Positions 4,019 through 46,035 of a stretch of DNA of 64,000 nt are shown here, piece after piece. The notes under the pieces were generated by a model, which worked only from the letters and a program-made list of their open reading frames with translations, made no database searches and was not told where the DNA came from. Source of the stretch: Ilyonectria destructans (taxonomy: Eukaryota; Ascomycota; Sordariomycetes; Hypocreales; Nectriaceae). The translations under genes and the position numbers were made by a program. Location of the stretch: assembly GCA_020740775.1 (NCBI GenBank), contig JAHEWK010000041.1, forward strand, positions 124,001 through 188,000. The letters run 5' to 3'. Numbering within the stretch: position 1 is the stretch's first letter; each line of letters begins with the position of its first letter.

Positions 4019-7000
4019 CTAGTCCATGTTAAGCCTCCCCGTTGCAATGGCAAATTTGATCGTTGCCCGTACTGCCCGCATATCTGGTGCCCATTTGTCA
4101 TCGTCAGACGCTGCCTTTCCTCCCAAGAAGAACGAGAGGTTTCCCATCTTTGTTTGTGGGCATTTCAGCACGCCTTCCCGTTGCTTTGTCCACTTTGTGC
4201 ATCTGAATAGAAAATGCGCAACTGTCTCGGATGCTTGACCACATTCGCACATATCCGATTCCACTGCGCCGATGTTGTGCAGAAAGCTATTTAGTCTTGC
4301 CATTCCGGTGCGGAGCTGGACCAGCACCTCTGCTTCTTTCCTCTTCAGCAGGTCATATAGAGTACGGGTATGCTTGCCAGGTAGTGCCGTGTCTATCATC
4401 TTCGAGTATTTCCCGATTCTTCCCGGCGATGTCGTTGGTTGCCGCTGCTTGGTTATGGCTAGTCTTATCCTCGTGGATCTTGCTTGATACGGCGGCTTAT
4501 CTGGTCTGCATTCACTTTCAGTGGCCCTCCGGGCTGCTGCTTTGGCTTTTGGTCCTAGTGCGAAGTCTTCCTCTCCTGCTGGAACCCACATCATCTGGAG
4601 AGAGTTGCCCTCGTCTTCAAGACGGTTGACATGCTTGTAGATTTGCCGAATGGTCTGTTGACCGGACTGTTGTCGCGGCCGCCGTATGGCTTCTAGTGCG
4701 GAGCGGTTGCTCGTCATGACGATGATATTCCGTCGACGCAGTCCGAATGGCATGCATCTCAGGGCCATCTCTATAGCTCCCAGCTCGGCTATGTATGGGT
4801 TCAGCTCCTCCCTCGACCCGAGAGTGATAGAGTAGCTGGCCACATCCTCGTCAGCATTGTTGATCGCCGTATCTCGTACGACACCTCCCATGCCTACCAT
4901 GCCCCTTCTCTGTGAGGAGCAGGTGGCAATGACTATGCCGTCCACCCTATTTGCTGCTTCCACCGCTCTCTCCCGGTCAGGGTCGCACGACACCAAGATA
5001 CGATCTCGCCATGGCGGTAGCGCGTATTCTCGAATGATCTCCATTCGTTCAGTGGCTGTCTCCCCTTGTATCTGAGCAATCCTCTGCATCGGCGATACGA
5101 ATCGGCGATACACTTTCACCTTCAGTGTCGCCAACGGGTGTGTCCTGGGAAGGGTCCGGAGGTTGATCCAAAACCTTGTTGCCGCTTGCGCATGCCGTTC
5201 TTGCACCGGTTGGATGCTAGCTTCGGCCTCGGCCACCGCTGTTGCCACGGTCCGGAAAGCTCCCGTGATCGCCTGTGCTCCAACCATCTGTGCTTTGTCC
5301 AGCCAAGCGGCTTCTCTAATGCCGCATGAGTGCGCCCACACGCTAGACGCATAGTCCATGGTGGGAGCCACTGTTGCTACGAACAGTTGTCTCGCCGTCC
5401 GCGGTGACAACATTTTCAGTCTTTTCAAACACATAGCGGCCGAGAGCCCCTTTGCGGCAGCTTTAGCTATGTGTTCCTTGTATCGTAGTTTCGCGTCCAT
5501 GACCACTCCCAGGATCTTGGCGCTGGTCTTGGGCTTGACTACTTTTCCTTTGATCATGAACGGTTTGTCGCTGGTACGCGCGGCGTTTCGCGTGAAATGC
5601 ACGATGGCCGTTTTGTCTCCGTTAAACGTCGCACCGCTCCGTCTTTCCCAGCCCAGTGCTTCGTCTATAATTGATTGGATGCCGGCTCGATTCTCCTCCG
5701 CTGTTGGTCCCACCACCCAGGCTGAGTAGTCGTCCACGAATGCCATCGAGCCACCTCTTGCGTTGATTCTTCTCTGCACCAAATCTGCATTGAAGAACAG
5801 GAACAACACCGGCGACAGCGGTGATCCTTGCGGGAGACCTGCCTGTGGCAACTCCCGTAGCTGTGACGTGTGCCCATTTACCACCACGGTGGCCATTCGT
5901 CCAGAGCAGAAGGCGTCAATCCATCTCACCAGTCCACCAGGTATGCCTCTCGCCTTCAGCCTCTCCAGTAGTCGTTCTTTGAACACTCCATTGTAAGCGC
6001 CTTTGACGTCGAAACTGATCAGACTGAGCACCCTGCCGGCCCTCCATGCCTTATAGATCTGCTCCTGCAGCAGTATCAGTGCTTGTTCGGCTGACCTTCG
6101 CTTCCTTGCCCCGAAGTGGTTTGCGGGCAGCAATCCATAGCTTTCCACTACATAGGATATCCGCTCTGCAACGACTGCCTCGAGTATCTTGCCCAGTGTT
6201 GACAGCAGCGATATCGGTCTCCATGCCTTGGCCACTGTGTAGTCTCCCTTGTCTGCTTTCTTTAGCGGGATAATCTTCGCGCTCCTCCACTGGTGGGGTA
6301 CCACACCATCCCTGAGGGATGTGTCGAAGAGGTGCAAGACACGGTATCTAACCACTGGCCAAAGCTGTTTCCACACCATTGCTGGCAGACCATCCTCTCC
6401 AGGCGCTTTCCAAGGTTTCGCTGCTATCACTTTTTCTTCAACTTCCTCCATGGTGAGGTCTGGCATGTGCACTTCCGTCCGTTGCGGTCGGTCGCCTTCA
6501 TCTTCAATCCTGGCCGGCAACGGCGGGAAGAACGTGCTGAATAGCTCCTCTGCCTGCTCCACCCTATCTACAGTGGTGGAGCCGTCTTGTCTCTTCAAAG
6601 GGGGCACCCTATCGTCCATGATGTCCTTTCCAGGTTTCAAATACTTGGCTGCCTTCCATATGTTGACATCTTCTGCTAGGAACTCGTCCCAGTGCAGTTT
6701 CTTCTGTTTCCGGATGGCATCATGGTACTCCTTGGATGCTTCCTTGGCCCGTCCTTCCAGGTCGGGCCTCACCTGACCTGCTCGCCGCTGTGCCCTAGCC
6801 TGATTCCGCCAGAACGTGTACACCCGCCGAAGTCTCGTCAAATCCTTCGTCCACCAGCACTTCGCGTACGGTACTGGTTGTGCTCGGGGCGTCAGCTCGT
6901 GGATCGCCTCGAGGATGACCCTCATTAACTGGTCTGTCTGTTCCTGCACGCCGACAGTCCAGGGAAGCTCTTGGAGATTGTCCTCCACCTTGGTTCTAAT

Positions 7001-7780
7001 TGCTGTCCATGGTGCATTCTTGAACAACAGTCTTTCCGTGACAATCCGATCAGGCCTCGCGAGATCGAACGTCGTTTGGATCGCCCGGTGGTCCGATCCG
7101 TGTTCTGTCGGGTGTATGGAGCGCGTCACCATTTCGTCTGCCACCTCCGCCGTCGCCAGCACCAGGTCGATTGTGCTTTCCTTGTCGGGGCCTTGCCGTG
7201 TCTTTGTGCCTCTCGGGAGGAGGCTGCAAAGACCGTGTTCGTTCATGAGGTCGATGATCGGTTCGGCCTCGCCTTGCCTTGCTAAGGCCACGTCGTCTCC
7301 TCCCCATAGCCGGTCGTGTTGGTTAAAATCTCCGGCCAGTATGACGTCCACCGCCATCCCTGTCCTGCTCCTGAGGTCGAGGATCACCTGGTGCAGGGTA
7401 TGGCATGTATTTCGAAGAGCCTGGGGCTTGCGTCCCGGCACATACACTGACACAACCAACATTATTCGGTCCGGAAGTCGTATGGCTGCTGCTGTCAAGT
7501 CCGGGGACTGTATTGGTACTTGGTTGGCCTCCAAGTCCCTATTCACCCACAACATGCTCCGGATCGGCCATCTGCCATCTCTCCAAATCGTAGGGACCAT
7601 TTTAATCCATCTGGGATGCCCCATAGGGACTGTTAATAGTTTGCCGTCACTTTTCCATGCTGGTGGTTCTTGGACCGCCACAACTGCAAAATCTTGGAGT
7701 CGCGTATCGTTCATTAGGCTCTCATGTACCGTGTCCTGTTTTCTTACATTCAGTTGAATTACCTGGAATATCCTACTCAT
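4019..7780 (-). CDS. LINE ORF2: endonuclease / reverse transcriptase / RNase H-like
   Basis: About 1253 aa starting at the ATG at 7780 (MSRIFQV); the open frame continues upstream only as a shadow of ORF1. The N-terminal part is an AP-like endonuclease/exonuclease/phosphatase domain (IQLNVRK, VAVQEPP, LAGDFNQHDRLWGG, IDLVLA, EHGSDHRAI). The middle part is a reverse transcriptase (WRPISLLSTLGK, SFDVKGAYNGV, GLPQGSPLSP and the catalytic FVDD at about residue 681). Next comes an RNase H-like region in which the usual central Asp is replaced (VMTSNRSALEAI), which I recall as common in fungal Tad1 elements. The C-terminus has a CxC...H...C zinc-ribbon-like motif (MCECGQASETVAHFLFRC). It would nick target DNA and copy the LINE RNA. 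No stops or frameshifts are visible. Confidence 0.92.
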   Translation of the reverse strand: MSRIFQVIQLNVRKQDTVHESLMNDTRLQDFAVVAVQEPPAWKSDGKLLTVPMGHPRWIKMVPTIWRDGRWPIRSMLWVNRDLEANQVPIQSPDLTAAAIRLPDRIMLVVSVYVPGRKPQALRNTCHTLHQVILDLRSRTGMAVDVILAGDFNQHDRLWGGDDVALARQGEAEPIIDLMNEHGLCSLLPRGTKTRQGPDKESTIDLVLATAEVADEMVTRSIHPTEHGSDHRAIQTTFDLARPDRIVTERLLFKNAPWTAIRTKVEDNLQELPWTVGVQEQTDQLMRVILEAIHELTPRAQPVPYAKCWWTKDLTRLRRVYTFWRNQARAQRRAGQVRPDLEGRAKEASKEYHDAIRKQKKLHWDEFLAEDVNIWKAAKYLKPGKDIMDDRVPPLKRQDGSTTVDRVEQAEELFSTFFPPLPARIEDEGDRPQRTEVHMPDLTMEEVEEKVIAAKPWKAPGEDGLPAMVWKQLWPVVRYRVLHLFDTSLRDGVVPHQWRSAKIIPLKKADKGDYTVAKAWRPISLLSTLGKILEAVVAERISYVVESYGLLPANHFGARKRRSAEQALILLQEQIYKAWRAGRVLSLISFDVKGAYNGVFKERLLERLKARGIPGGLVRWIDAFCSGRMATVVVNGHTSQLRELPQAGLPQGSPLSPVLFLFFNADLVQRRINARGGSMAFVDDYSAWVVGPTAEENRAGIQSIIDEALGWERRSGATFNGDKTAIVHFTRNAARTSDKPFMIKGKVVKPKTSAKILGVVMDAKLRYKEHIAKAAAKGLSAAMCLKRLKMLSPRTARQLFVATVAPTMDYASSVWAHSCGIREAAWLDKAQMVGAQAITGAFRTVATAVAEAEASIQPVQERHAQAATRFWINLRTLPRTHPLATLKVKVYRRFVSPMQRIAQIQGETATERMEIIREYALPPWRDRILVSCDPDRERAVEAANRVDGIVIATCSSQRRGMVGMGGVVRDTAINNADEDVASYSITLGSREELNPYIAELGAIEMALRCMPFGLRRRNIIVMTSNRSALEAIRRPRQQSGQQTIRQIYKHVNRLEDEGNSLQMMWVPAGEEDFALGPKAKAAARRATESECRPDKPPYQARSTRIRLAITKQRQPTTSPGRIGKYSKMIDTALPGKHTRTLYDLLKRKEAEVLVQLRTGMARLNSFLHNIGAVESDMCECGQASETVAHFLFRCTKWTKQREGVLKCPQTKMGNLSFFLGGKAASDDDKWAPDMRAVRATIKFAIATGRLNMD

Positions 7781-9083
7781 GCCGAGTAGGGTAGAGTTTC
7801 GGGCAGCTTCGACTGAACGACTCGTGCGGTCCACCACAGGGTACGCACTTGGGTACCTGCGTCTGGCACTCACTATGATGGTGGCCTTCGGCAGCGCACC
7901 TCGCACATACCCGATTCTTGCTGCACGAGAAAGCCTTGTGGCCGAGCTCCTGGCAGTTATAGCATTGTATCGGTCCGGTTCTCCGCTCGAACATGCTGGT
8001 ATAAGCCGATTCACCGGCTGCAAGGAAGTAGCGTTCCTGTAAGAGTCTCCTGGCATCACTGTTTTTGGTGAGGTATACCACCATGGATCCATATGCCTTT
8101 GCGTTATCCCTGCGACTCAACCAGACCATCTTGGCAATCTGGACTTCATTCTCTTGGCCCAAGGCTTCCATTGCTCCAGGAAGGACCTTGCCTTCCTGGT
8201 CGAGAACGGCGGTACGGTTGATATTGTCAACTTTGACTGGGTACAGTTGGTCACGAAGGACTCTCGCACCTGGAGCCTTCTTGACCTCAATAATGGTCTT
8301 GATCTTCTTCAGTTCTTCCTCGTTCCTACCGATGACCCTCAGGCGGTTGGCATTTCGTCCATCTCTGGTCACTGCAACACATCGCCAACTAGGTTGGTCG
8401 CTAGATGTTCGCATTTCCTGTTCAATGGTCCTGCGAAGCACTGCTGGTGTAGTATCTCCGATATGATCCTCGGGCACCCTGGATGTGTCTACCGTGCAGA
8501 ACACCGGTTCCGGGGTTGCCGATCGAACCGTGGATGGGGTTTGAGTGGTAATACTAATAGGCGTCATCCTGGCAGCATCTGCATATGTCTGACTAGGCGA
8601 TCTTGCTGCATGAGCATTGGTCAAGGTGTCCAGCTGTAGCCGGGTCTGCTCCAACTCGCTGCAAACCAGGGTGAGCTGCTCTCGAGCCTGTGACAATTCT
8701 TGCGCCATCTGGGCCGTGGTCCTAGTGACTTCCTCAGCCATGCGGTCGCTAAGTTTTGTAAACTCGAGCTGAAACTCTGCCTTCATTGCTTCCATTCTTT
8801 GATTGAAATCCTGTTCCAGGAGTAGTTTCAAACCCTGGATCGCCTCGGTCATGCTGCCAGCTGCCTTAGGCGTGGTTCTTTTCTTAGTTCGCGTATGACT
8901 CAGAGCTCCCTCGCTGCTCTCCTCCTCCTGCCATTCCATATCGCCTTTTTGCTGCTCGGACTCTAATGCCCTCGTCGTTCTGGTCCTTTTACGCAGGGGA
9001 CGATAATATCCCCCGCCCGGAACATCCGGTTCGCCTTCCATGACGACAATGACGTCTGAAGCGGGGTTCGCAACGCCAGACAT
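7773..9083 (-). CDS. LINE ORF1: gag-like RNA-binding protein
   Basis: A 436-aa protein. The N-terminus is charged, with a basic RPLRKRTRTTR stretch. Residues of about 75-160 form a probable coiled coil (MTEAIQGLKLLLEQ to LEQTRLQLDTL), and a central RNA-binding-type region follows. The C-terminus has two CCHC zinc knuckles (CYNCQELGHKAFSC and CARCAAEGHHHSEC, both C-x2-C-x4-H-x4-C) and a third variant knuckle (CVPCGGPHESFSRSC). This is the usual ORF1 make-up of Tad1-like LINEs, thought to form the ribonucleoprotein particle. Its stop overlaps the ORF2 start in the eight bases ATGAGTAG, implying translational coupling. Confidence 0.9.
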   Translation of the reverse strand: MSGVANPASDVIVVMEGEPDVPGGGYYRPLRKRTRTTRALESEQQKGDMEWQEEESSEGALSHTRTKKRTTPKAAGSMTEAIQGLKLLLEQDFNQRMEAMKAEFQLEFTKLSDRMAEEVTRTTAQMAQELSQAREQLTLVCSELEQTRLQLDTLTNAHAARSPSQTYADAARMTPISITTQTPSTVRSATPEPVFCTVDTSRVPEDHIGDTTPAVLRRTIEQEMRTSSDQPSWRCVAVTRDGRNANRLRVIGRNEEELKKIKTIIEVKKAPGARVLRDQLYPVKVDNINRTAVLDQEGKVLPGAMEALGQENEVQIAKMVWLSRRDNAKAYGSMVVYLTKNSDARRLLQERYFLAAGESAYTSMFERRTGPIQCYNCQELGHKAFSCSKNRVCARCAAEGHHHSECQTQVPKCVPCGGPHESFSRSCPKLYPTRHE

Positions 9084-9670: not shown

Positions 9671-12033
9671 ATGCCTTCATATCCATTGTTTCAGCCTCGG
9701 GGAAGGTTCGGAAAGGCCACACCCCCTAGGACTCCCTCTGAGCCGATCGATTCTGCTCAGTCCAGTACCCCTAGCTCGGTCTCAACTCCAACCAGTGTGC
9801 CACTTCATGGCGCTTCTCCCGCAACCGTTTCCCACGAAAGAGAGGTGCCAAAAGCTTCTCAATGCCATTTCCCTGTCGAGTGGGACAAAATCCGTTACGA
9901 TGGGAAGCCAGTGCCATCCATCCGATATCGTCAGCCTCATAAGCGCACCATCAACTCCAAATCCCAACCCTCAGCAATCTACAGACACGGCGCACAGCTT
10001 ACAACGGACGGAGACAATAAGTACTGGCTCTGCAAATACTGCCACGTTAGTGGCCATCACAATACTGCGCTCTTTGCCAGTGAGAGCACGACCAGCATTA
10101 TATACCATCTGAAACATCAGCACAGGCTGGAAGAATTTGGCTGCAAGGCAGCAGAATGCAACCCCTTCAGCATAGCCAAGGGTGCAACAAATCTCACATC
10201 ATACCTCGGAGGCCGGCGCTTGGTGTTCAACGACCTGCAATTTAAAGACGATTTTACCGACTGGGTGATTGATCTTGATCTCACCTTCCGTCAAGCAACC
10301 CATCAACGCACCTATGAGATTTTTACCAACTATCTGGAAGACAGCGACAAGATTCTGCCCAAGAGCCCGTCAGCTCTTAGTAGCTGGGTCAAAGAGAAAT
10401 GGTTTGGTGATGCTGGGAGACGTGTTTGGCTGAGAGAAAAGCTCCATCTCACCACAAGCAAGATTCACGTCTCGACGGATGCGTGGACGTCTGAAGAAGG
10501 GACAAACTATCTAGCTGTTGTTGCTCACTTCTTGGATGAAGGACATAAGCTACAGACAGCTCTTCTGGACCTTCCCCCTCTGAAAGGCCCTCACTCCGGC
10601 GAAAATATTGCCAAGGTGCTGTCAACAGTCATCGATTTCTACGATATCTCCCCAGTCATTGGCTTCTTTATGATGACAACGCTAGCAATAATGACACATG
10701 CATTCAGGAGCTAGCAAAGCAGTACCCTGCAATCAACCGTCAGAGTCGCCTTCGGTGCGTCGGCCATATGCTGAATCTCATCGTCAAAGCTCTCCTCTTT
10801 GGGCAGGGCGTTAGCAAGCTGGAGCAACGGCTCCGTGGCGCATCTGATGACGAGCGGTTTGAGATATGGAGGAAGCAAAGCTTTATCGGCAAGCTCCACA
10901 ACTTCTGTACGTGGATCAACAGAAGCGACCAGCGACGAGAGAGACTGAAACAGTACGTTCTGCAGGCGTACGACGAAGGCAGCATCGAGAACCTCTACAC
11001 TAGAGTCCTGGTCGATGGCGGGATCCGCTGGAACTCTGTATATTCCATGATTGAAAGAGCTCTGAAACTCCGCCACGCCATTGATCTATTCTTACTCAAC
11101 TACAACGATACCAACGGAGAATATGATATCTCACAGGATATCCTTACTCCACAAGATTGGACCGATCTGGGCCACTTCCTCAATATCTTAAAGCCCTTCA
11201 AAGACCTAACAAAGCGCATGGAAGGCCGGGCAAACAAAGCTGGCATAGAAGGATCGCATGGCTCTCTCCACGAGACGATCGAGTCGCTTGATGTCCTTTT
11301 CAAGAAGCTCCAGGAGGCTGGGAAGTTTGCAGATGATCACCCTGACGTGGTGTCAACATACTATTCCCATGCTATTGATGCTGCTCGCATCAAGCTTGAA
11401 GAATATTTTGGCCTCACAGATGCCACGCCTGCATACCAATGTGCAGTTGCCCTGCATCCGGCAAACAAATTTACCTACTTCGAGCTTGAATGGAGTCACA
11501 ACAAGCAATGGATCAGCGGGGCGAAGAGAGTGGTGCGGGAGGCTTATGCACAATACGAGGAAGCAGCTGCGGAAGTGGACCTAAGAGAAGGAGCACGACA
11601 GCAGCAGCAGCAGCAGCAGGAGGAGGAGGAGGAGGAGGAGGAGGAGGCTGTTGCTGATAACAGGGCGAGGCTTGATCCACTCCAGCAAGCTCGTAAGCGT
11701 CGTCAGAGGCTTGCTGCCATTGCGGCGTCAGCCACACGAGGGAAGCGGACAAAACTGACATCTGAGCTGGATGAGTTTATGGCCAGGACTAATAAGGCTG
11801 ATCTGGATGTTGAGGATCCTCTGGAGTGGTGGGTTCGCCATACATCTGACTACCCCATCCTGTCCAAGATGGCCTTTGACTTGTTCAGTTGCCCAGCAAT
11901 GAGCGCCGAGTGTGAACGCGTTTTCTCACAGACAAAGAAGGTCATCACAGATGAACGAAATCGGCTTAACTCGGACACTGTAGCAGCGATTGAATGCCAA
12001 AAGCACCTGCTTCGAAGCGGTATGTTAGCATAG
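9671..12033 (+). pseudogene. hAT transposase with one frameshift
   Basis: The 5' frame (from the ATG at 9671) has a BED-type zinc finger (WLCKYCHVSGHH to HLKHQH) and the hAT motif STDAWTSEEGTNYLAVVAHFLDE. It then shifts frame at about 10670-10676, where one base seems missing before the DNASNND motif. The second frame continues with CVGHMLNLIVKALL and ends with the hAT dimerisation domain (DPLEWWVRHTSDYPILSKMAFDLFS, SAECERVFSQTKKVI). Together this is nearly 800 residues, normal for the family. A Q7E9 run interrupts the region before the dimerisation domain. With this single lesion the element should be non-autonomous, unless it is a sequencing error. The TTG-started longer frame is rejected because ATG 9671 suits the family. 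Confidence 0.85.
11599..11646 (+). repeat. Trinucleotide tract (CAG)7(GAG)9 in the transposase
   Basis: Seven CAG codons are followed directly by nine GAG codons, coding Gln7-Glu9 in a linker between the catalytic and dimerisation regions of the hAT transposase. Such tracts are slippage-prone, and length variation between copies is expected. Confidence 0.95.
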
Positions 12034-13486: not shown

Positions 13487-14809
13487 CTAAGAAGGTGGAG
13501 CGCCAACGAAAATAGTCAAGTTCTCAACGTTTCCAGATGAAACAATGCCTGAGGCATTCTCATTGCCGTCTGGGTTGACGTCGTCGTAGGAGAATGCATA
13601 TCCCCTGCCGTCTACCTCGTACTTATGAATGACACGACTGTAGTGGTTAGTAGGATCGACCGTGTAGTACGAATCGCTGCCAAGGTTCGGCTGCACATTG
13701 CCTCCATCGAGAAGAAGAGTGGAGCGGACAAATGCGGCGCAGAGACGCGGAACTACTGCCTTGTGAATGGCATTGTCGCCATCCGTAATAGCAAACGGCC
13801 CGGTGTTGCAGCCCCAAATGTCGTTGGCGCTGGGCTTTGTGTAGCCTCGATTGTCGCCATTGCAGATCAATTCATCTCCCGAAACCTGGCAGCTAACGTC
13901 TCCGAAATCTGTCTGCGTATTGATCATCAACGTCGAGATGGTATATTGGCTCCAGACTTGGTCAACATAACTAGGCCAGTATTTTACAAACGCATCGGTG
14001 TTGAGATCGTGGAAGTTGCCGGGTGACAATACTCGGATAGGGGTTCCCGCAGCATTGGCAATGCACATGGAACTCCACGGGTATCCGTCAGCATCCATCT
14101 GCGTCACCAAATCATTGCAGATGTTGATGACACTGTCAGCCTGGAGTCCCGCTGCACTTTGCATGGTGCCGTCGGCGACCGTTAGTAACATGCCCAGAAT
14201 CATGCCAACAAAGTCAACGTAGCTAATGTTTGCATATATGACCCCGCCAGTGTAAGTAAACTCAACGAAGCCCCATTTGAGGCCAGCGTTTGCATCCCGA
14301 AGGTTGGTAATGGACGGCTGAACCAAGGCATCCCCTATTCCAGTGTTCACCATGTAAAACGACAAGCCACCGTCGGAAAAATAGATGCGTCCAGAGCTCA
14401 TATAAATTGGCAGAGTGAGTTCAAACGTGCCTCCAGTTATGGGAATGGTAATGCTCTCGGTAATTTTAACAGGAACCGTGGAGCCACCTGAGGAAGGATA
14501 AATCAAGGATCCATTCCTAGCAACGAAGACAACCGCACCATTGGAGTCCAGCCCGGATATGTAGACGTTGATTGCACCGCCACTGTAGTTGTTGACGAAC
14601 TTCAGAGGCAGAGTGGCGACGACTGGGTCCCGACGGGCAATAGTGCTGGCGCTGTTGAGGGTATTTTCTTCGGTGACTTTGACATCATCAATACCCCCTG
14701 GTTGGATTTTGGTAAATCCTTCTGGGGTTAGGATATCTCTCACAAGCTTCAGGGTGGGATGGCAAGTTACTAAGCCGAGAAAGGTGGTAATGAGAAAGAA
14801 TGGGCGCAT
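13487..14809 (-). CDS. Secreted glycoside hydrolase family 64 (endo-beta-1,3-glucanase)
   Basis: A 440-aa protein that starts with a hydrophobic signal peptide (about residues 1-16, MRPFFLITTFLGLVTC) and should be secreted. A linker containing the dibasic site ARRD (about 59) precedes the thaumatin-like GH64 fold. The catalytic pair of this family is visible: Glu183 in GFVEFT and Asp199 in YVDFVG, 16 residues apart as in characterised GH64 laminaripentaose-producing glucanases. Paired cysteines in the C-terminal half fit an extracellular protein. It probably hydrolyses beta-1,3-glucan of fungal walls, for wall remodelling or attack on other fungi. It has no introns, is intact, and is the only undamaged metabolic gene in the transposon-dense first 37 kb. 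Confidence 0.88.
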   Translation of the reverse strand: MRPFFLITTFLGLVTCHPTLKLVRDILTPEGFTKIQPGGIDDVKVTEENTLNSASTIARRDPVVATLPLKFVNNYSGGAINVYISGLDSNGAVVFVARNGSLIYPSSGGSTVPVKITESITIPITGGTFELTLPIYMSSGRIYFSDGGLSFYMVNTGIGDALVQPSITNLRDANAGLKWGFVEFTYTGGVIYANISYVDFVGMILGMLLTVADGTMQSAAGLQADSVINICNDLVTQMDADGYPWSSMCIANAAGTPIRVLSPGNFHDLNTDAFVKYWPSYVDQVWSQYTISTLMINTQTDFGDVSCQVSGDELICNGDNRGYTKPSANDIWGCNTGPFAITDGDNAIHKAVVPRLCAAFVRSTLLLDGGNVQPNLGSDSYYTVDPTNHYSRVIHKYEVDGRGYAFSYDDVNPDGNENASGIVSSGNVENLTIFVGAPPS

Positions 14810-15062
14810 TTGAGCGAAATGGACGGGTGGACTGGATATATTGTTAGATGCGAAATCGGCTTCCTCTTCAATGGCAACTCTTCTCAGAAGTGAGCACGGA
14901 CCATGTTAGTATATACTTAACGATACATGATAGTATATGCTTACGGCCAGAATTGGCCATAAGGCTCATACATTTATGCTTACTCAATGTACCTCTAAGT
15001 AACTCATTGTACATAAGGAATCTAGAAATTCACGTGACTAGCCTGACAGTGTGACTCTGACA

Positions 15063-38592: not shown

Positions 38593-39725
38593 AAGTATGG
38601 CGCCTCTATTTTATTCTGGCGGTTCTTCAATACAAACCCCAGCCCAGCGAAAATGACCCTCCGCGCTAGCCTTTCGGCTGCCGACCACATCCACGCACTC
38701 TTCCAAGAAGAGCTGAAAATCTCGCTGGATGAGGTTCACCTGATCTTGCCACACCATCCTAATGTAGTTTTTGAGTTCCCCAAAGAATCGCTCTATGGGG
38801 TTAAAGTCAGGAGAGTAGGGTGGAAGGTAAAGCAATACGACGCCCGCATCTCGGCACATCTGTGTTACTTTCTCCGTGTGGTGAAACGATGCATTATCCA
38901 TGATCAGGACAGATCTTGGGCCAGGCCATTTGCCACAGTATGGCAAGAGTCCCTCAATAAAACCCTCAAAGATTTCAGCATCGGTTGATCCATCATATAC
39001 TCGAAAATGAATAACACCCTCTTGGGTATAGGCGGGCAGGATTTGGAGTCTTTGTCCACGGTGGAAATGCTTGACTTGAGCAGGCGTGACCCCAACAGGA
39101 GCCCAGCCTTTGTTTCTAGTCCCGATACTTCTATCGCTTCCAGACTCGTCTATGAAAACCATCTGATAGGAGTGGTAAAAAGATCTTTCGTAGATGTGCT
39201 CCTCTCGTAGATCCTCGTTCCGCTCCTTGGCAATAACATTTGCCAACTTATGAGACCATCTCGCCTCTTTCAGAGCTCGGCTAATGGCAGACTCTGACAC
39301 AATGACGTCAAACTCCTTATGAAGGAAGGTGACCATTTCACGGATATTCATGCAAGAGGTGACGGTGAGTTCGGCACGCAACGCGGTCATCATGAGAGGA
39401 GAAATTGTTTTAGGTCGACCGACACCGTTCGAGGGGGCTTTCGCTGCTCCGAAGAGGAGCATGTTCGATCGGATGTGGCGTACTGTGCGGGTGGTACATT
39501 GGTTGACTTCGGCGATGTCTTTGTCTGTAAGCCCATTGTCGCCATCTAACTTACTCTGTATCATGTGCTCAATAGACAGGCGGGTAGTAGGGTGAAGGTT
39601 CGGCGCCATCGTAGTCCAGTTGTGGTGTGAAGGAGGGGATTGCTATGGCCATTTCCAGCCATTGCGGATCAGCGAGGGGCACTCGGAGCTCGGGTGGACG
39701 TAAAACCGAAAGCCACGGGCCTGGA
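38593..39725 (-). mobile_element. Tc1/mariner-superfamily element (ends not resolved)
   Basis: Contains the intact transposase at 38611-39609. The 5' flank up to about 39720 (cgtaaaaccgaaagccacgg) is shared with a fragment at 45903-46035, so it belongs to the element. I could not pair terminal inverted repeats or TA duplications with confidence. The left end must lie within about 18 bp of the preceding gene's stop. Confidence 0.55.
38611..39609 (-). CDS. Tc1/mariner transposase (DD34E)
   Basis: A 332-aa protein. The N-terminal helix-turn-helix region covers about residues 10-120 (GLTDKDIAEVNQCTTRTVRHIRSNM, then GRPKTIS and SESAISRALKEARWSH). The DDE catalytic domain has Asp154 (MVFIDESGSD), Asp238 (VLIMDNASFHH) and Glu273 (YSPDFNPIERFF). 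The second and third residues are separated by 34 residues, the DD34E spacing of Tc1-like transposases. The usual GTRNKGWAPVG motif is present. The frame is intact and the three catalytic residues are kept, so it may be active. It would cut and paste the element at TA sites. A truncated relative lies 6 kb to the right. Confidence 0.92.
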   Translation of the reverse strand: MAPNLHPTTRLSIEHMIQSKLDGDNGLTDKDIAEVNQCTTRTVRHIRSNMLLFGAAKAPSNGVGRPKTISPLMMTALRAELTVTSCMNIREMVTFLHKEFDVIVSESAISRALKEARWSHKLANVIAKERNEDLREEHIYERSFYHSYQMVFIDESGSDRSIGTRNKGWAPVGVTPAQVKHFHRGQRLQILPAYTQEGVIHFRVYDGSTDAEIFEGFIEGLLPYCGKWPGPRSVLIMDNASFHHTEKVTQMCRDAGVVLLYLPPYSPDFNPIERFFGELKNYIRMVWQDQVNLIQRDFQLFLEECVDVVGSRKASAEGHFRWAGVCIEEPPE

Positions 39726-39906: not shown

Positions 39907-42900
39907 ATGTCACTGGATGACTGCCTATCATCAAGGATGCAACTCGACAACCCTGAGCTTTACACCATAGGATGGATTGCTGCCCTCCCCATCGAGCGCG
40001 CAGCAGCCACAGCGTTATTTGATGACTGCCATGAAAACCCTAAAGATTTCGATCAACCTCGATCCGACCCGAATTCGTACGAGTGGGGCCGCATAGGCAA
40101 GCACAATATCGTGATCGCTTCACTTCCTGACGGAGACTATGGAACGACCCCTGCGACAACGACAGCATCAAACCTGATCTCCTCCTTGCCTCATATTCGG
40201 ATCGGTTTGCTGGTGGGCATTGGGGGAGGTATCGCTCAACCTGAGCAGGGCCGAGATATCCGACTCGGTGATGTTGTAGTGAGCCGACCTGATGGAACTA
40301 CTGGTGGAGTGGTCCAATATGATCTAGGGAAGGCGAAGTTGGATCAAGCCTGGGAGCTGAAAGGGTCTCTTAACAAGCCTCCCCGGGTTCTTCTCCATGC
40401 CCTGGCGAGCTTGCGAGCAAAGTATGAGAGAAGACCATCGCAGATTCCTGATCTCCTCCAGAGGATGTATACGACCAATCCCCTCATGACGAGACCAAAG
40501 ACCAATTTCACTCATCAAGGGTTTGAGAATGATCATTTATTCCCATCAACCTATGACCATATCGGAGGCAATACCTGCGACAAGTGCGACCATTCCCAAG
40601 AGGTCGAGCGAGATCCACGAGATTCTAATGATCCAGAGATTCACTATGGAGTTATCGCTTCTGGAAACACACTCATCAAGGATCCTAGCACTCGTGATAG
40701 GATCTTAGAGGTTGCCGGAGAGCAGTGTATGTGTGTTGAAATGGAAGCTGCCGGTCTGATGGACCACTTTCCCTGCCTCGTGATTAGGGGTATCTGTGAT
40801 TATGCGGATTCGCATAAAAATGATCGATGGCAGCGGTATGCGTCTGCTACGGCAGCTTCATTTGCGGTGGAGCTGCTTGGCCATATCCCTACTAGGGAGC
40901 TTGAAGCCACACGGCGGGTGGTTGATATCAAATCTCGTTAGTTTTCTCCTATTGATCATTAGATAAATGGATATTTACATATTTTTAGTTATGGAGGGTA
41001 TAAATGGTGTTCAGCTCATGACGCTTGATACAAAGAGGGAAGTCCAGAATGTCAGGTAAGATAGCAAATGTGGCTCTAATATAGACACCGTCACCGATAA
41101 CTGACAGTCATCCACAAGTATGACCTTGCATAGCGTTGACCAGAAAATGGTCCTAGATCGTCTCCCAGTTGCTGATGGGGCATTCTTCGATTCTCATGGC
41201 GATGGACATAATGCGACTTGCCTACCAAATACCCGGGTGAACCTCCTCCGACAAATACACCAATGGGCAAACGATCCTTGCGCCAAATCTATCTTCTGGC
41301 TCAAAGGCATGGCAGGGACAGGAAAATCTACCATTTCCCGGACTGTCGCTCAGTCTTGTGCTGTAACAGGTCACCTTGGCGCTAGCTTCTTCTTCAAGAG
41401 AGGAGAGGCAGACCGAGAAAACATGTCAAAGTTCTTCACAACGATAGCGGCCCAACTAGCTCAGAGGGAGCCAGTAATAGTGCCATCTATCGAGGCTGCT
41501 ATTAATGCTGATCCTTATATTGCCGGAAAAGCATTACAGGATCAGTTCGATCAACTGATTATACAGCCACTGGGAAATATCCCCCCTGACGCAAGGAGAT
41601 TGGATACTCTAGTGCTTGTGGTTGATGCCCTTGATGAGTGCGATACAGAAACAGACATCAAACTTCTCATCAATCTCCTATCTCGCACTAAGAATTTGCA
41701 GTTTCCAAAGCTGAGAATCCTTATTACGAGCAGGCCAGAGCTGCCAATTCACCTGGGTTTTACTAGCATAAAGGGCTCATATCAGGATCTTGTCCTTCAT
41801 GAGATCCCTGAGGAAATCATTAAGGATGATATCACTGCGTTCTTCAAGTACGAGCTTGCAAGAATCAAGACGGACTACAACTCATCTGTGCCGACAAATC
41901 GACAGTTGCCACTCAACTGGCCCGAAGAAGGAAATATTCAGCTTCTTGTCAAAATGGCTATTCCTCTGTTTATCTTTGCTGCAACCGTATGTCGCTTCAT
42001 CGACGACCGCAAATGTGGCAGCCCTCACACGCAATTGGCCCAAATTCTAAGCCACGGAAGCAGCGGTCATAGCTCAAGGCTTCACCAAGCATATGGCCCA
42101 GTCCTGAGTTCACAGCTTAAAGAGGTCTTGCAAAAGGATAGGGACAAGATCATCAATGAGTTCACACTTATTGTTGGCACCATAGTCACCCTCGCAAGCC
42201 CTTTATCTGTATTGGCCTTATCACAGCTACTTAATATTTCCCCTGATATCGTGGACACAAGACTAGATACACTCCATTCGGTTTTGGATGTTCCAGTGGA
42301 GCGTGATTTGCCTGTACGACTATTGCATTTGTCATTCCGAGATTATCTTATCAATCCCGAAGAGAAGAAGACAAATGAGCTCTGGGTGGATGAGAACTCT
42401 GCACATTGCAATCTGGGCAAGCAATGTTTGCGTATCATGGACGAGGGTCTCCGCGAGAACATATGCAGCATGTCATTCCCAGGAATGCGTCGGTCCACAA
42501 TTGATTCTCAACAGATCGATAAATGCTTATCTCCGGAACTTCAATATGCCTGTCGTTACTGGGTGCATCACCGAACAGCCATTGATCTTGAGCTGAATAA
42601 TATGCAAGAGGTCTATGATTTCCTGGTAGAACACTTTCTCCATTGGCTTGAGGCAATGAGCTTCATGGGTCGGACTGTAGAAGGCCTCAGTATACTTAGA
42701 TCATTAGCAGATTGGCTCAAGGTATAACTCAAGTATAACTTTATGAGTATGAATTTTGCTGACTTCTAGCAGGATAGGGAAGCTTCAAGCCTTTCGAGTT
42801 TCGTATCTGACGCGGTTCGATTTGTTAAAATGAATTTCTCAGTGATTGATAAGACACCCTTACAGATTTATTCTTCAGCTTTGGTTTTCACCCCTAGTAC

Positions 42901-44743
42901 AAGCATTATTCGGAGATCCTTCGAGGACCCGATTCCAACATGGCTATCTTTTTGGCCACACATCAATGAAGATTGGGATGCATGCCTCTCGATACTAGAA
43001 GGCCATAACAACTTAGTCTCGTCAGTGGTGTTCTCACACGACTCAAAGCTCGTGGCCTCGGCCTCCGGCGATACAACGGTACGGATCTGGAGCGTCGAGA
43101 CGGGGAAGTGCGAGCAGGTACTAGAAGGCCATGGCGACTCGGTCTCGTCAGTGGTGTTCTCACACGACTCAAAGCTCGTGGCCTCGGCCTCCGGCGATAC
43201 AACGGTACGGATCTGGAGCGTTGAGACGGGGAAGTGCGAGCAGGTACTAGAAGGCCATGGCGACTCGGTCACGTCAGTGGTGTTCTCACACGACTCAAAG
43301 CTCGTGGCCTCGGCCTCCGGCGATACAACGGTATGGATCTGGAGCGTTGAGACGGGGAAGTGCGAGCAGGTACTAGAAGGCCATGGCATCTGGGTCTTGT
43401 CAGTGGTATTCTCACACGACTCAAAGCTCGTGGCCTCGGCCTCCGGCGATACGACGGTACGGATCTGGAGCGTCGAGACGGGGAAGTGCAAGCAGGTACT
43501 AGAAGGCCATGACAACTCGGTCTCGTCAGTGGTGTTCTCACACGACTCGAAGCTCGTGGCCTCGGCCTCGCACGATACGACGGTACGGATCTGGAGCGTC
43601 GAGATGGGGAAGTGCGAGCAGGTACTAGAAGGCCATAGCATCTGGGTCTCGTCAGTGGTGTTCTCACACGACTCGAAGCTCGTGGCCTCAGCCTCGCACG
43701 ATACGACGGTACGGATCTGGAGCGTCGAGACGGGGAAGTGCAAGCAGGTACTGGAAGGCCATGGCAACTCGGTCTCGTCAGTAGTATTCTCACACGACTC
43801 AAAGCTCGTGGCCTCGGCCTCTGACGATACGACGGTACGGATCTGGAGCGTCGAGACGGGGAAGTGCGAGCAGGTACTGGAAGGCCATGGCGGCTCAGTC
43901 TTGTCAGTGGTGTTCTCACACGACTCAAAGCTCGTGGCCTCGGCCTCGCGCGATACAACGGTACGGATCTGGAGCGTTGAGACGGGGAAGTGCGAGCAGG
44001 TACTAGAAGGCCATGGCATCTGGGTCTCGTCAGTGGTGTTCTCACACGACTCAAAGCTCGTGGCCTCGGCCTCGCACGATACGACGGTACGGATCTGGAG
44101 CGTCGAGACGGGGAAGTGCGAGCAGGTACTAGAAGGCCATAGCATCTGGGTCTCGTCAGTGGTGTTCTCACACGACTCAAAGCTCGTGGCCTCGGCCTCG
44201 CGCGATACAACGGTACGGATCTGGAGCGTTGAGACGGGGAAGTGCGAGCAGGTACTAGAAGGCCATGGCGACTCGGTCTCGTCAGTGGTGTTCTCACACG
44301 ACTCAAAGCTCGTGGCCTCGGCCTCGCACGGTACGGCAGTACGGTTCTGGGGCGTCGAGACGGATACGACAGTACGGATCTGGAGCATCGAGACGGGGAA
44401 GTGCGAGCAGGTGATTCGCCAAGATCATTATACGCAAGTGCTCTCTTTTACGACTGATAATATTGGTCTTGTCACAGGTAACGGGGTGATTCCTATGGCC
44501 AGGGAGTCAATAACCTCCACGGAATCTCTCGCCCTATCACCCTCTTCAGTCCAAACACTTCGCATTGAAGACTGCACTTGGGTTTCATATAGAGGGAAAA
44601 ATCTATTTTTGCTACCAGCGGAGTGTCGCAATGGGACTACAGCTATATCAGGGGATAATATTGCTATTGGTTGCATTTCAGGAAAAGTGGTGCTCTTGCC
44701 ATTCCTTTCTAGTGAGCTTGAGCGGTTGATAGACGGGAATTAA
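39907..44743 (+). CDS. PNP_UDP-NACHT-WD40 NOD-like receptor
   Basis: A fungal STAND/NLR receptor of roughly 1500 aa in several exons. Exon 1 (39907 to about 40936) is a nucleoside-phosphorylase-like domain (YTIGWIAALPIERAAA, LLVGIGGGIAQP, CVEMEAAGLM). A NACHT exon (41119/41120-42721) follows, with Walker A GMAGTGKST, Walker B LVLVVDALDEC and LRILITSRPEL. The last exon (42770-44743) holds a linker and 11 WD40 repeats. The introns at 41056-41118 and 42722-42769 have good GT/CTGAC/AG signals. The junction right after the PNP exon is less certain (donor GTTAGT at 40937). In this family the WD repeats bind a ligand, NACHT oligomerises, and the N-terminal domain acts as effector. Proteins of this kind mediate heterokaryon incompatibility or non-self recognition. 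The near-identical repeats imply fast turnover. Confidence 0.88.
41056..41118 (+). other. Probable intron before the NACHT exon
   Basis: Donor GTAAGA at 41056, branch-like CTGAC at 41101 and acceptor CACAAG ending at 41118 give a 63-base intron that places MTLHSVDQKM in frame. An alternative acceptor ends at 41107 (CTGACAG). The short exon just upstream reads REVQNVR in one frame. How it links to the PNP exon is unresolved. Confidence 0.6.
42722..42769 (+). other. Intron between NACHT and WD40 exons
   Basis: Donor GTATAA, branch GCTGAC and acceptor TTCTAG give 48 bases. The unspliced frame would stop at once (GTA TAA). The acceptor is directly followed by CAG (TAGCAG), so a tandem NAGNAG choice could add or drop one Gln while staying in frame. 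Confidence 0.8.
42995..44413 (+). repeat. Eleven near-identical 126-bp WD40 repeats
   Basis: Units start at 42995 and then every 126 bp (43121, 43247 ... 44255). Ten are exactly 42 aa and the last is extended to 53 aa. The invariant frame is LEGHxxxVxSVVFSHDSKLVASASxDTTVRIWSVETGKCEQV. Variable triplets after LEGH are NNL, GDS, GDS, GIW, DNS, SIW, GNS, GGS, GIW, SIW, GDS. The residue after V is S, T or L. The residue before D is G, H, D or R. Even third codon positions are mostly identical between units, a sign of recent duplication or gene conversion. Confidence 0.97.
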
Positions 44744-45902: not shown

Positions 45903-46035
45903 GTAGGGTAGAGGTTCGGTGCCATCCTAGTCCAGTTGTGGTGTGCAAGAGGGGATCGCTGTGGCCATTTCAGGCCGCAGCAGATCTACGAGGGGCTCTC
46001 GGAGCTCGGGTAAATGTAAAACCGAAATGCACGGT
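45903..46035 (-). pseudogene. Truncated Tc1/mariner fragment
   Basis: About 130 bp aligned to 39586-39720 of the intact mariner: start codon with MAPNL-PT, then the 5' flank through gtccagttgtggtgtg and cggagctcggg to gtaaaaccgaaa. The reading frame ends in a stop after eight codons, and the rest of the transposase is absent. Confidence 0.75.

Follow-up and report, generated by a model that had tools for sequence, protein, structure and literature searches.

A stretch of 64,000 nucleotides from Ilyonectria destructans (contig JAHEWK010000041.1, positions 124,001 to 188,000; hereafter the window) carries a single receptor gene on its + strand, at window positions 39907-44743. The gene has four exons, every one of them open, and its architecture is PNP_UDP-NACHT-WD40. 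It probably encodes an intracellular NOD-like receptor (NLR; STAND type) of the high-internal-conservation (HIC) class, with a WD40 sensor that varies on its top face and a PNP effector. From its sequence, the gene looks like an immune receptor in whose sensor repeats nearly all differences lie at residues that would be expected to contact the target, a design known from other fungi, and a function as a non-self receptor is plausible. The best reading is membership in a described class, fungal NLRs that pair strongly conserved WD40 repeats with a PNP effector. What the gene adds to that class is modest, namely differences at three sensor positions in a second sequence, and homogenisation that appears confined to the gene.

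The sensor is built of eleven tandem WD40 units of 126 bp, or 42 amino acids, at 42992-44377 (+), with starts at 42992, 43118, 43244, 43370, 43496, 43622, 43748, 43874, 44000, 44126, and 44252. The eleven near-identical repeats proposed in an initial annotation of the window were recovered by translation in register and, independently, by Tandem Repeats Finder (TRF; period 126, 10.9 copies, 93% matches, 42993-44363), and Pfam marks 11 WD40 stretches. Units 1-10 share a mean pairwise identity of 93.1% in nucleotides and 89.7% in amino acids, the lowest single pair standing at 83.3% of amino acids, over 420 amino acids; when all 11 units are included, the mean amino acid identity is 0.86. The tail of unit 11 is rearranged and adjoins an in-frame duplication of about 33 bp at 44328-44396 (+; TRF period 33, 2.1 copies), and unit 11 was dropped from the codon-variation counts beyond position 26.

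The amino acid varies at 9 of the 42 codons (1, 6, 7, 8, 10, 26, 31, 37, and 41), and exactly five codons (6, 7, 8, 10, and 26) show three or more amino acids. The variants listed in the annotation are all present, including the triplets NNL, GDS, GIW, DNS, SIW, GNS, and GGS, the S/T/L after V, and the G/H/D/R before DTTV, and the five-site code is different in each of the 11 units. In the HNWD proteins of Podospora, the positions published as having high dN/dS are 10, 11, 12, 14, 30, 32, and 39 (PMC12222747; here and below, papers are cited by PMC number for the parts of their text that were available). A unit position equals the HNWD position minus 4, so these become 6, 7, 8, 10, 26, 28, and 35. 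All five of the codons that have at least three amino acids belong to the seven (hypergeometric 2.5e-5), as do 5 of the nine variable codons (p = 0.0026). In an older numbering, the selected codons are four in number, namely 7, 9, 25, and 27 (PMC2873952); in our own reading, these correspond to unit positions 8, 10, 26, and 28 if counted from the L of LEGH, in agreement with the longer list. The codon counts bear out the suggestion that variation is concentrated on the HNWD hypervariable positions. The sites named in the annotation (10, 11, 12, 14, and 30) are genuine published positions, but that list lacked 32 and 39; five of the seven sites thus vary in amino acid here, and the other two (unit positions 28 and 35) are among eight codons with silent variation only. 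Repeat-induced point mutation (RIP) was considered as a source of the variation and rejected, as the 59 consensus differences in units 1-10 hold no RIP-like excess (C>T before A, 0; G>A after T, 6). All four combinations occur at 40 of 78 informative site pairs, as expected under shuffling among units or recurrent change.

Across the 45 unit pairs, the ratio of nonsynonymous to synonymous polymorphism (pN/pS) is 1.04 at the seven published codons, 0.93 at the four of the older list, and 0.15 at the other 35. A value of 3.61 is obtained for the five variable codons, which were chosen after looking. This pattern shows focused variation, and positive selection at these sites is not supported. Some of the evidence weighs against a purely immune reading. 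The ratio of 1.04 is as under relaxed constraint, and one could consider the array to be a structural WD40 repeat that was amplified or gene-converted recently, in which the variable sites are the least constrained surface, subject to relaxed drift, with no polymorphic recognition role. Among 240 homologous proteins scanned, 56 have at least five contiguous 42-amino-acid units, and 20 of the 56 have a mean identity of at least 0.80. Positions 26, 8, 7, 10, and 28 head the variability ranking of these 20 arrays (6 is ninth and 35 tenth). Two of the 20 are named as cyanobacterial, P0170 from Nostoc and P0204 from Microcoleus, and they partly share the pattern: of the six positions that vary most in each, 4 and 3, respectively, belong to the seven. 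Three arrays below 0.60 identity are also headed by 8, 7, 26, and 10. Since it recurs to some extent in cyanobacterial and low-identity arrays, the pattern comes in part from the propeller fold itself. Nevertheless, the purely structural explanation is unlikely, given the distinct five-site codes of the 11 units, the published precedent of a class of NLRs whose recognition has been tested (PMC2873952, PMC12222747), and the differences seen in a second sequence.

That sequence is P0001, the Dactylonectria estremocensis protein B0J13DRAFT_682307, which fits the splice model of the window gene as far as repeat 1. Upstream of the array, 8 of 973 aligned residues differ between P0001 and the window protein, with one extra glutamine set aside. 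In repeat 1, 3 of 37 comparable residues differ, all of them at positions 8, 10, and 26 (Fisher p = 0.006 for repeat 1 against upstream). All three differences fall on the four Podospora-selected sites (p = 0.0005); for the seven sites, p = 0.0045. The differences support variation aimed at the sensor face. A second D. estremocensis protein, P0002, is 88% identical over the NACHT part, and its array opens with the same repeat as that of P0001; in the window's own genome, the search turned up no second copy as close as P0002, the best NACHT paralogue being 57% identical. Every close second sequence is a gene model that departs from the array once repeat 1 is over, and the database clusters at 90% identity may conceal closer members. 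Since the P0001 model ends after repeat 1, repeat number is not comparable with it. The differences at sensor positions 8, 10, and 26 of repeat 1 in this one second sequence may reflect the polymorphism proposed in the annotation; repeat-number polymorphism is not supported. A GH64 beta-1,3-glucanase elsewhere in the window (13490-14905, -) is 93% identical to Ilyonectria and at most 82% to D. macrodidyma. The receptor is 99% identical to a D. estremocensis gene, and this contrast with the GH64 gene may reflect a recent transfer of the receptor between species.

The array can also be set against the rest of its own genome, an assembly of 71.7 Mb in 74 contigs (labelled C below), in which the comparison covered the 20 best WD40 loci, the window included, of 105 matching stretches. 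The 168 units of these 20 loci were placed in a tree, where the 11 from the window group as a single clade (support 0.994, or 0.999 with the seven codons masked). Not one of the 11 lies nearer to the 19 remaining loci than to its own array, the best cross-locus identity being 76% of nucleotides. Homogenisation and exchange therefore appear confined to the gene itself. The concerted repeat evolution suggested in the annotation is supported for the gene and not for the family, as no exchange with the 19 loci compared is seen. In agreement, when the array DNA was searched against the whole genome, 21 matches other than the array itself came up, with identities of 64-77%; none of the long ones exceeded 71%. 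The window unit consensus, with hypervariable positions masked, was also compared with 173 other arrays. The top 25, of which 24 are named Fusarium, are 83-91% identical to it, and the paralogue arrays of its own genome rank 49th or lower, at 74% identity or less. In Podospora and Chaetomium, units are reported to group by species (PMC1805685).

Five or more anchored units occur in 19 of the 20 loci, and in all 19 the seven published positions are more variable on average than the other 35, although these loci include several that nearly duplicate one another, and a number of conserved positions are fixed by the way units were searched for. One locus, L009 (G000:C21:91559-93277), has 12 near-identical WD40 units with a mean amino acid identity of 0.88 and one TAG within the match; it varies mostly at positions 6, 7, 8, 10, 26, and 28. 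Four paralogous NACHT-WD40 genes, L002-L005 (G000:C13, C30, C9, C11), have WD40 frames of 747 amino acids, and 11, 11, 8, and 9 of 11 of their units, respectively, are nearer another locus than their own array, which suggests recent duplication of whole genes rather than homogenised arrays. A relict copy was sought nearby, and tblastn of the protein against C36:188001-207000 gave no match, only repeated DNA stretches.

The number and order of such repeats could be an artefact of assembly, with near-identical units collapsed or expanded, and short reads do mis-assemble near-identical 126-bp units in Podospora (PMC12222747). For the window array, this is very improbable. The 74 contigs for 71.7 Mb suggest that long reads were used, the 11 distinct five-site codes are unlike the outcome of simple expansion, and 11 is the usual repeat number in functional HET-D and HET-E alleles (PMC12222747).

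Ahead of the array, the gene begins with exon 1 (39907-40936, +), which encodes a PNP_UDP_1 phosphorylase/nucleosidase effector domain (Pfam PF01048, E 9.5e-7, above the curated cut-off); its motif residues, given below, are the same in P0001. Pfam thus confirms PNP_UDP rather than HET ahead of NACHT-WD40, as annotated; no HET domain was found, and Pfam at E 0.001 gives only PNP_UDP_1 in exon 1. Exon 2 (40989-41055, +) is a short linker in the splice model, identical in P0001, and the introns around it lie at 40937-40988 and 41056-41118 (+). Of 34 open two-intron combinations enumerated, this one alone has donors at 40937 and 41056 and a TTTTAG acceptor. Exon 3 (41119-42721, +) holds the NACHT nucleotide-binding domain (NPHP3_N, E 2.8e-31; NACHT, E 8.6e-8), with the Walker A motif or P-loop GMAGTGKST at 41306-41332 (+). 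Exon 4 (42770-44743, +) bears the array behind a NACHT-to-sensor linker at 42770-42991 (+), placed by the splice model and the P0001 alignment. Its acceptor is at 42769, or at 42772 as P0001 implies, and the spliced protein aligns with P0001 through repeat 1 without a gap except for one glutamine at this alternative acceptor. After the array comes a divergent but conserved C-terminus of 110 amino acids (44411-44740, +), which may form cryptic propeller blades. It has matches in 103 of the 240 homologues (E of 1e-3 or less), 54 of them at 1e-10 or less, with 26-48% identity, and shows about nine strands in the structure model, in places at low confidence. Structure prediction with 40 sequences gave a mean pLDDT of 78.5 and a pTM of 0.67; from the single sequence, the mean pLDDT was 48.3, which is unusable. 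Structural comparison of the model picks up mostly the first ring, with rows in more than one register, and the fold of the C-terminal half itself lies outside that comparison.

The PNP exon retains the motifs E.EAAG and RGIC.Y.D, whose residues we take to have catalytic roles. The same motifs are present in 21 of the 21 relatives checked, with VEMEA exact in 12 and RGICDYAD exact in 18, and the region aligns weakly to methylthioadenosine/S-adenosylhomocysteine (MTA/SAH) nucleosidases in the PDB (best E 0.03). By analogy, the effector is probably an ATP-nucleosidase. In bacteria, PNP_UDP domains are described as immune-related ATP nucleosidases (PMC10197012); another paper describes them as ATP hydrolases in immune cell death (PMC12881547). 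PNP_UDP makes up in the range of 20% of annotated N-terminal domains in fungal NLRs, and high internal conservation is found in 21.6% of NLR WD repeats (PMC4986451). In the window's own genome, NACHT exons that are close relatives (E of about 1e-149 or below) occur at fourteen loci, the window included, and a PNP frame lies upstream in 2 of the other 13, on C5 and C43. The C5 gene is the best PNP relative without a stop (64%) and has, by eye, diverged blades and no near-identical array; the C43 locus has three units by eye. Four of the remaining eleven loci were put to Pfam; three gave PigL_N (PF17111) at E <0.01, one of these above the curated cut-off, and the fourth gave no match. By eye alone, the seven further loci are similar.

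How such a receptor might work can be proposed in outline. The WD40 array would fold as one or more beta-propellers, whose top-face residues (unit positions 6, 7, 8, 10, and 26) would set what the receptor binds. Unequal crossing-over or gene conversion inside the array would keep the scaffold identical while reshuffling the binding residues. Once a non-self or modified-self ligand is bound, the NACHT domain would form oligomers and thereby activate the PNP domain. The PNP domain would then destroy a pool of nucleotides, by analogy through cleavage of ATP, and the cell would die or be arrested. The ligand need not come from another strain of the same species. There is a somewhat less than even chance that the receptor detects pathogens or other foreign microbes, so that its variation tracks enemies and not strains. 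A pathogen role has been proposed for the hnwd genes themselves (PMC2873952). In addition, five or more such WD40 units occur at no fewer than 19 loci of the genome, compared to nine het loci known in Podospora (PMC12222747), and we infer from this excess that most such loci are unlikely to be het genes. On the other hand, hetA, a PNP_UDP gene of NLR type, controls heterokaryon incompatibility in Aspergillus fumigatus (PMC11138114). The pathogen role is compatible with the receptor reading given at the outset, the ligand alone being different. A more specific proposal, which we regard as possible though rather doubtful, is a live allorecognition locus in Dactylonectria/Ilyonectria-type fungi that joins an HNWD-type sensor of 11 units to an ATP-destroying PNP domain, with alleles that differ chiefly on the top face and an array that diversifies within the gene only. 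If this were true, two-propeller recognition would be a module independent of the effector. The array is compact in size, and what distinguishes the two available sequences lends itself to a direct test.

The receptor is at the edge of a transposon-dense stretch. Three consecutive Helitron-like elements, with frames for Helitron_like_N and PIF1 helicase, occupy the minus strand at 16206-36777, and farther out are a long interspersed nuclear element (LINE)-type reverse transcriptase (4022-8116) and an hAT transposase (10549-12030). A DDE_3 frame, which we take to be a Tc1/mariner-type transposase, lies at 38614-39642 (-), about 265 bp upstream of the receptor start, and copies of this region at 95-96% lie on C15, C9, and C20. 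The gene is flanked by a 132-bp direct repeat (83%) at 39587-39718 and 45903-46034; elsewhere, the search found this repeat only at C36:199258, on the same contig.

The HIC class is defined by a central NACHT or NB-ARC domain, C-terminal repeats more than 85% identical over at least 100 amino acids, and an N-terminal effector from a known set (Dyrka et al. 2014). The window gene has all three features, with its NACHT domain, its repeat identity, and PNP_UDP_1 as annotated effector. A PNP effector on a fungal NLR is no novelty, and the databases already contain PNP-NACHT-WD40 proteins whose arrays are of the same type. The best 120 of 4412 PNP-NACHT homologues, which were those surveyed, come mainly from Fusarium and other Hypocreales, and many match the PNP, NACHT, and WD40 models. 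Proteins from Fusarium, Trichoderma, Thelonectria, Metarhizium, and Gaeumannomyces share the Pfam architecture, mostly at about 50-63% over PNP-NACHT, and several, such as Gaeumannomyces P0104 and P0106, have high-identity arrays with the same hypervariable positions. The window unit differs in having its own sequence, and its array is among the tightest compared. Two other known systems carry a PNP effector on a polymorphic or incompatibility-controlling NLR. Podospora Pa_3_8560 (PNP_UDP/NACHT/ANK) is polymorphic, with positively selected repeat positions (PMC4986451), and differs by its ankyrin sensor. The A. fumigatus hetA product is a PNP_UDP protein with NB-ARC in one allele, its role in incompatibility was confirmed by heterologous expression, and it differs by NB-ARC, with no WD40 array mentioned in the available part of the source (PMC11138114). 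Among the matches listed in the literature on NLRs and heterokaryon or vegetative incompatibility, there is no mention of Dactylonectria.

The closest sensor is that of the HNWD family of Podospora anserina (HET-D, HET-E, HET-R), which shares a NACHT domain followed by near-identical 42-amino-acid WD40 repeats, hypervariable at positions 10, 11, 12, 14, and 30 in both. Reactive HET-D and HET-E alleles usually also have 11 repeats and a divergent C-terminus, a likeness that goes by published layout and not by alignment. However, the window gene has a PNP_UDP effector in place of HET, its positions 32 and 39 are silent, and exchange between loci is reported in Podospora and not seen for the window units. 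Membership in HNWD is rejected, since no HET domain was found and no interlocus unit exchange was seen. The picture of hypervariable WD40 sensors drawn from Podospora is extended to a Nectriaceae-type genome with many such arrays. Variation at the same few residues, here with a different effector in front, suggests a sensor module that works independently of the killing domain, and homogenisation within the gene only is a testable difference from Podospora.
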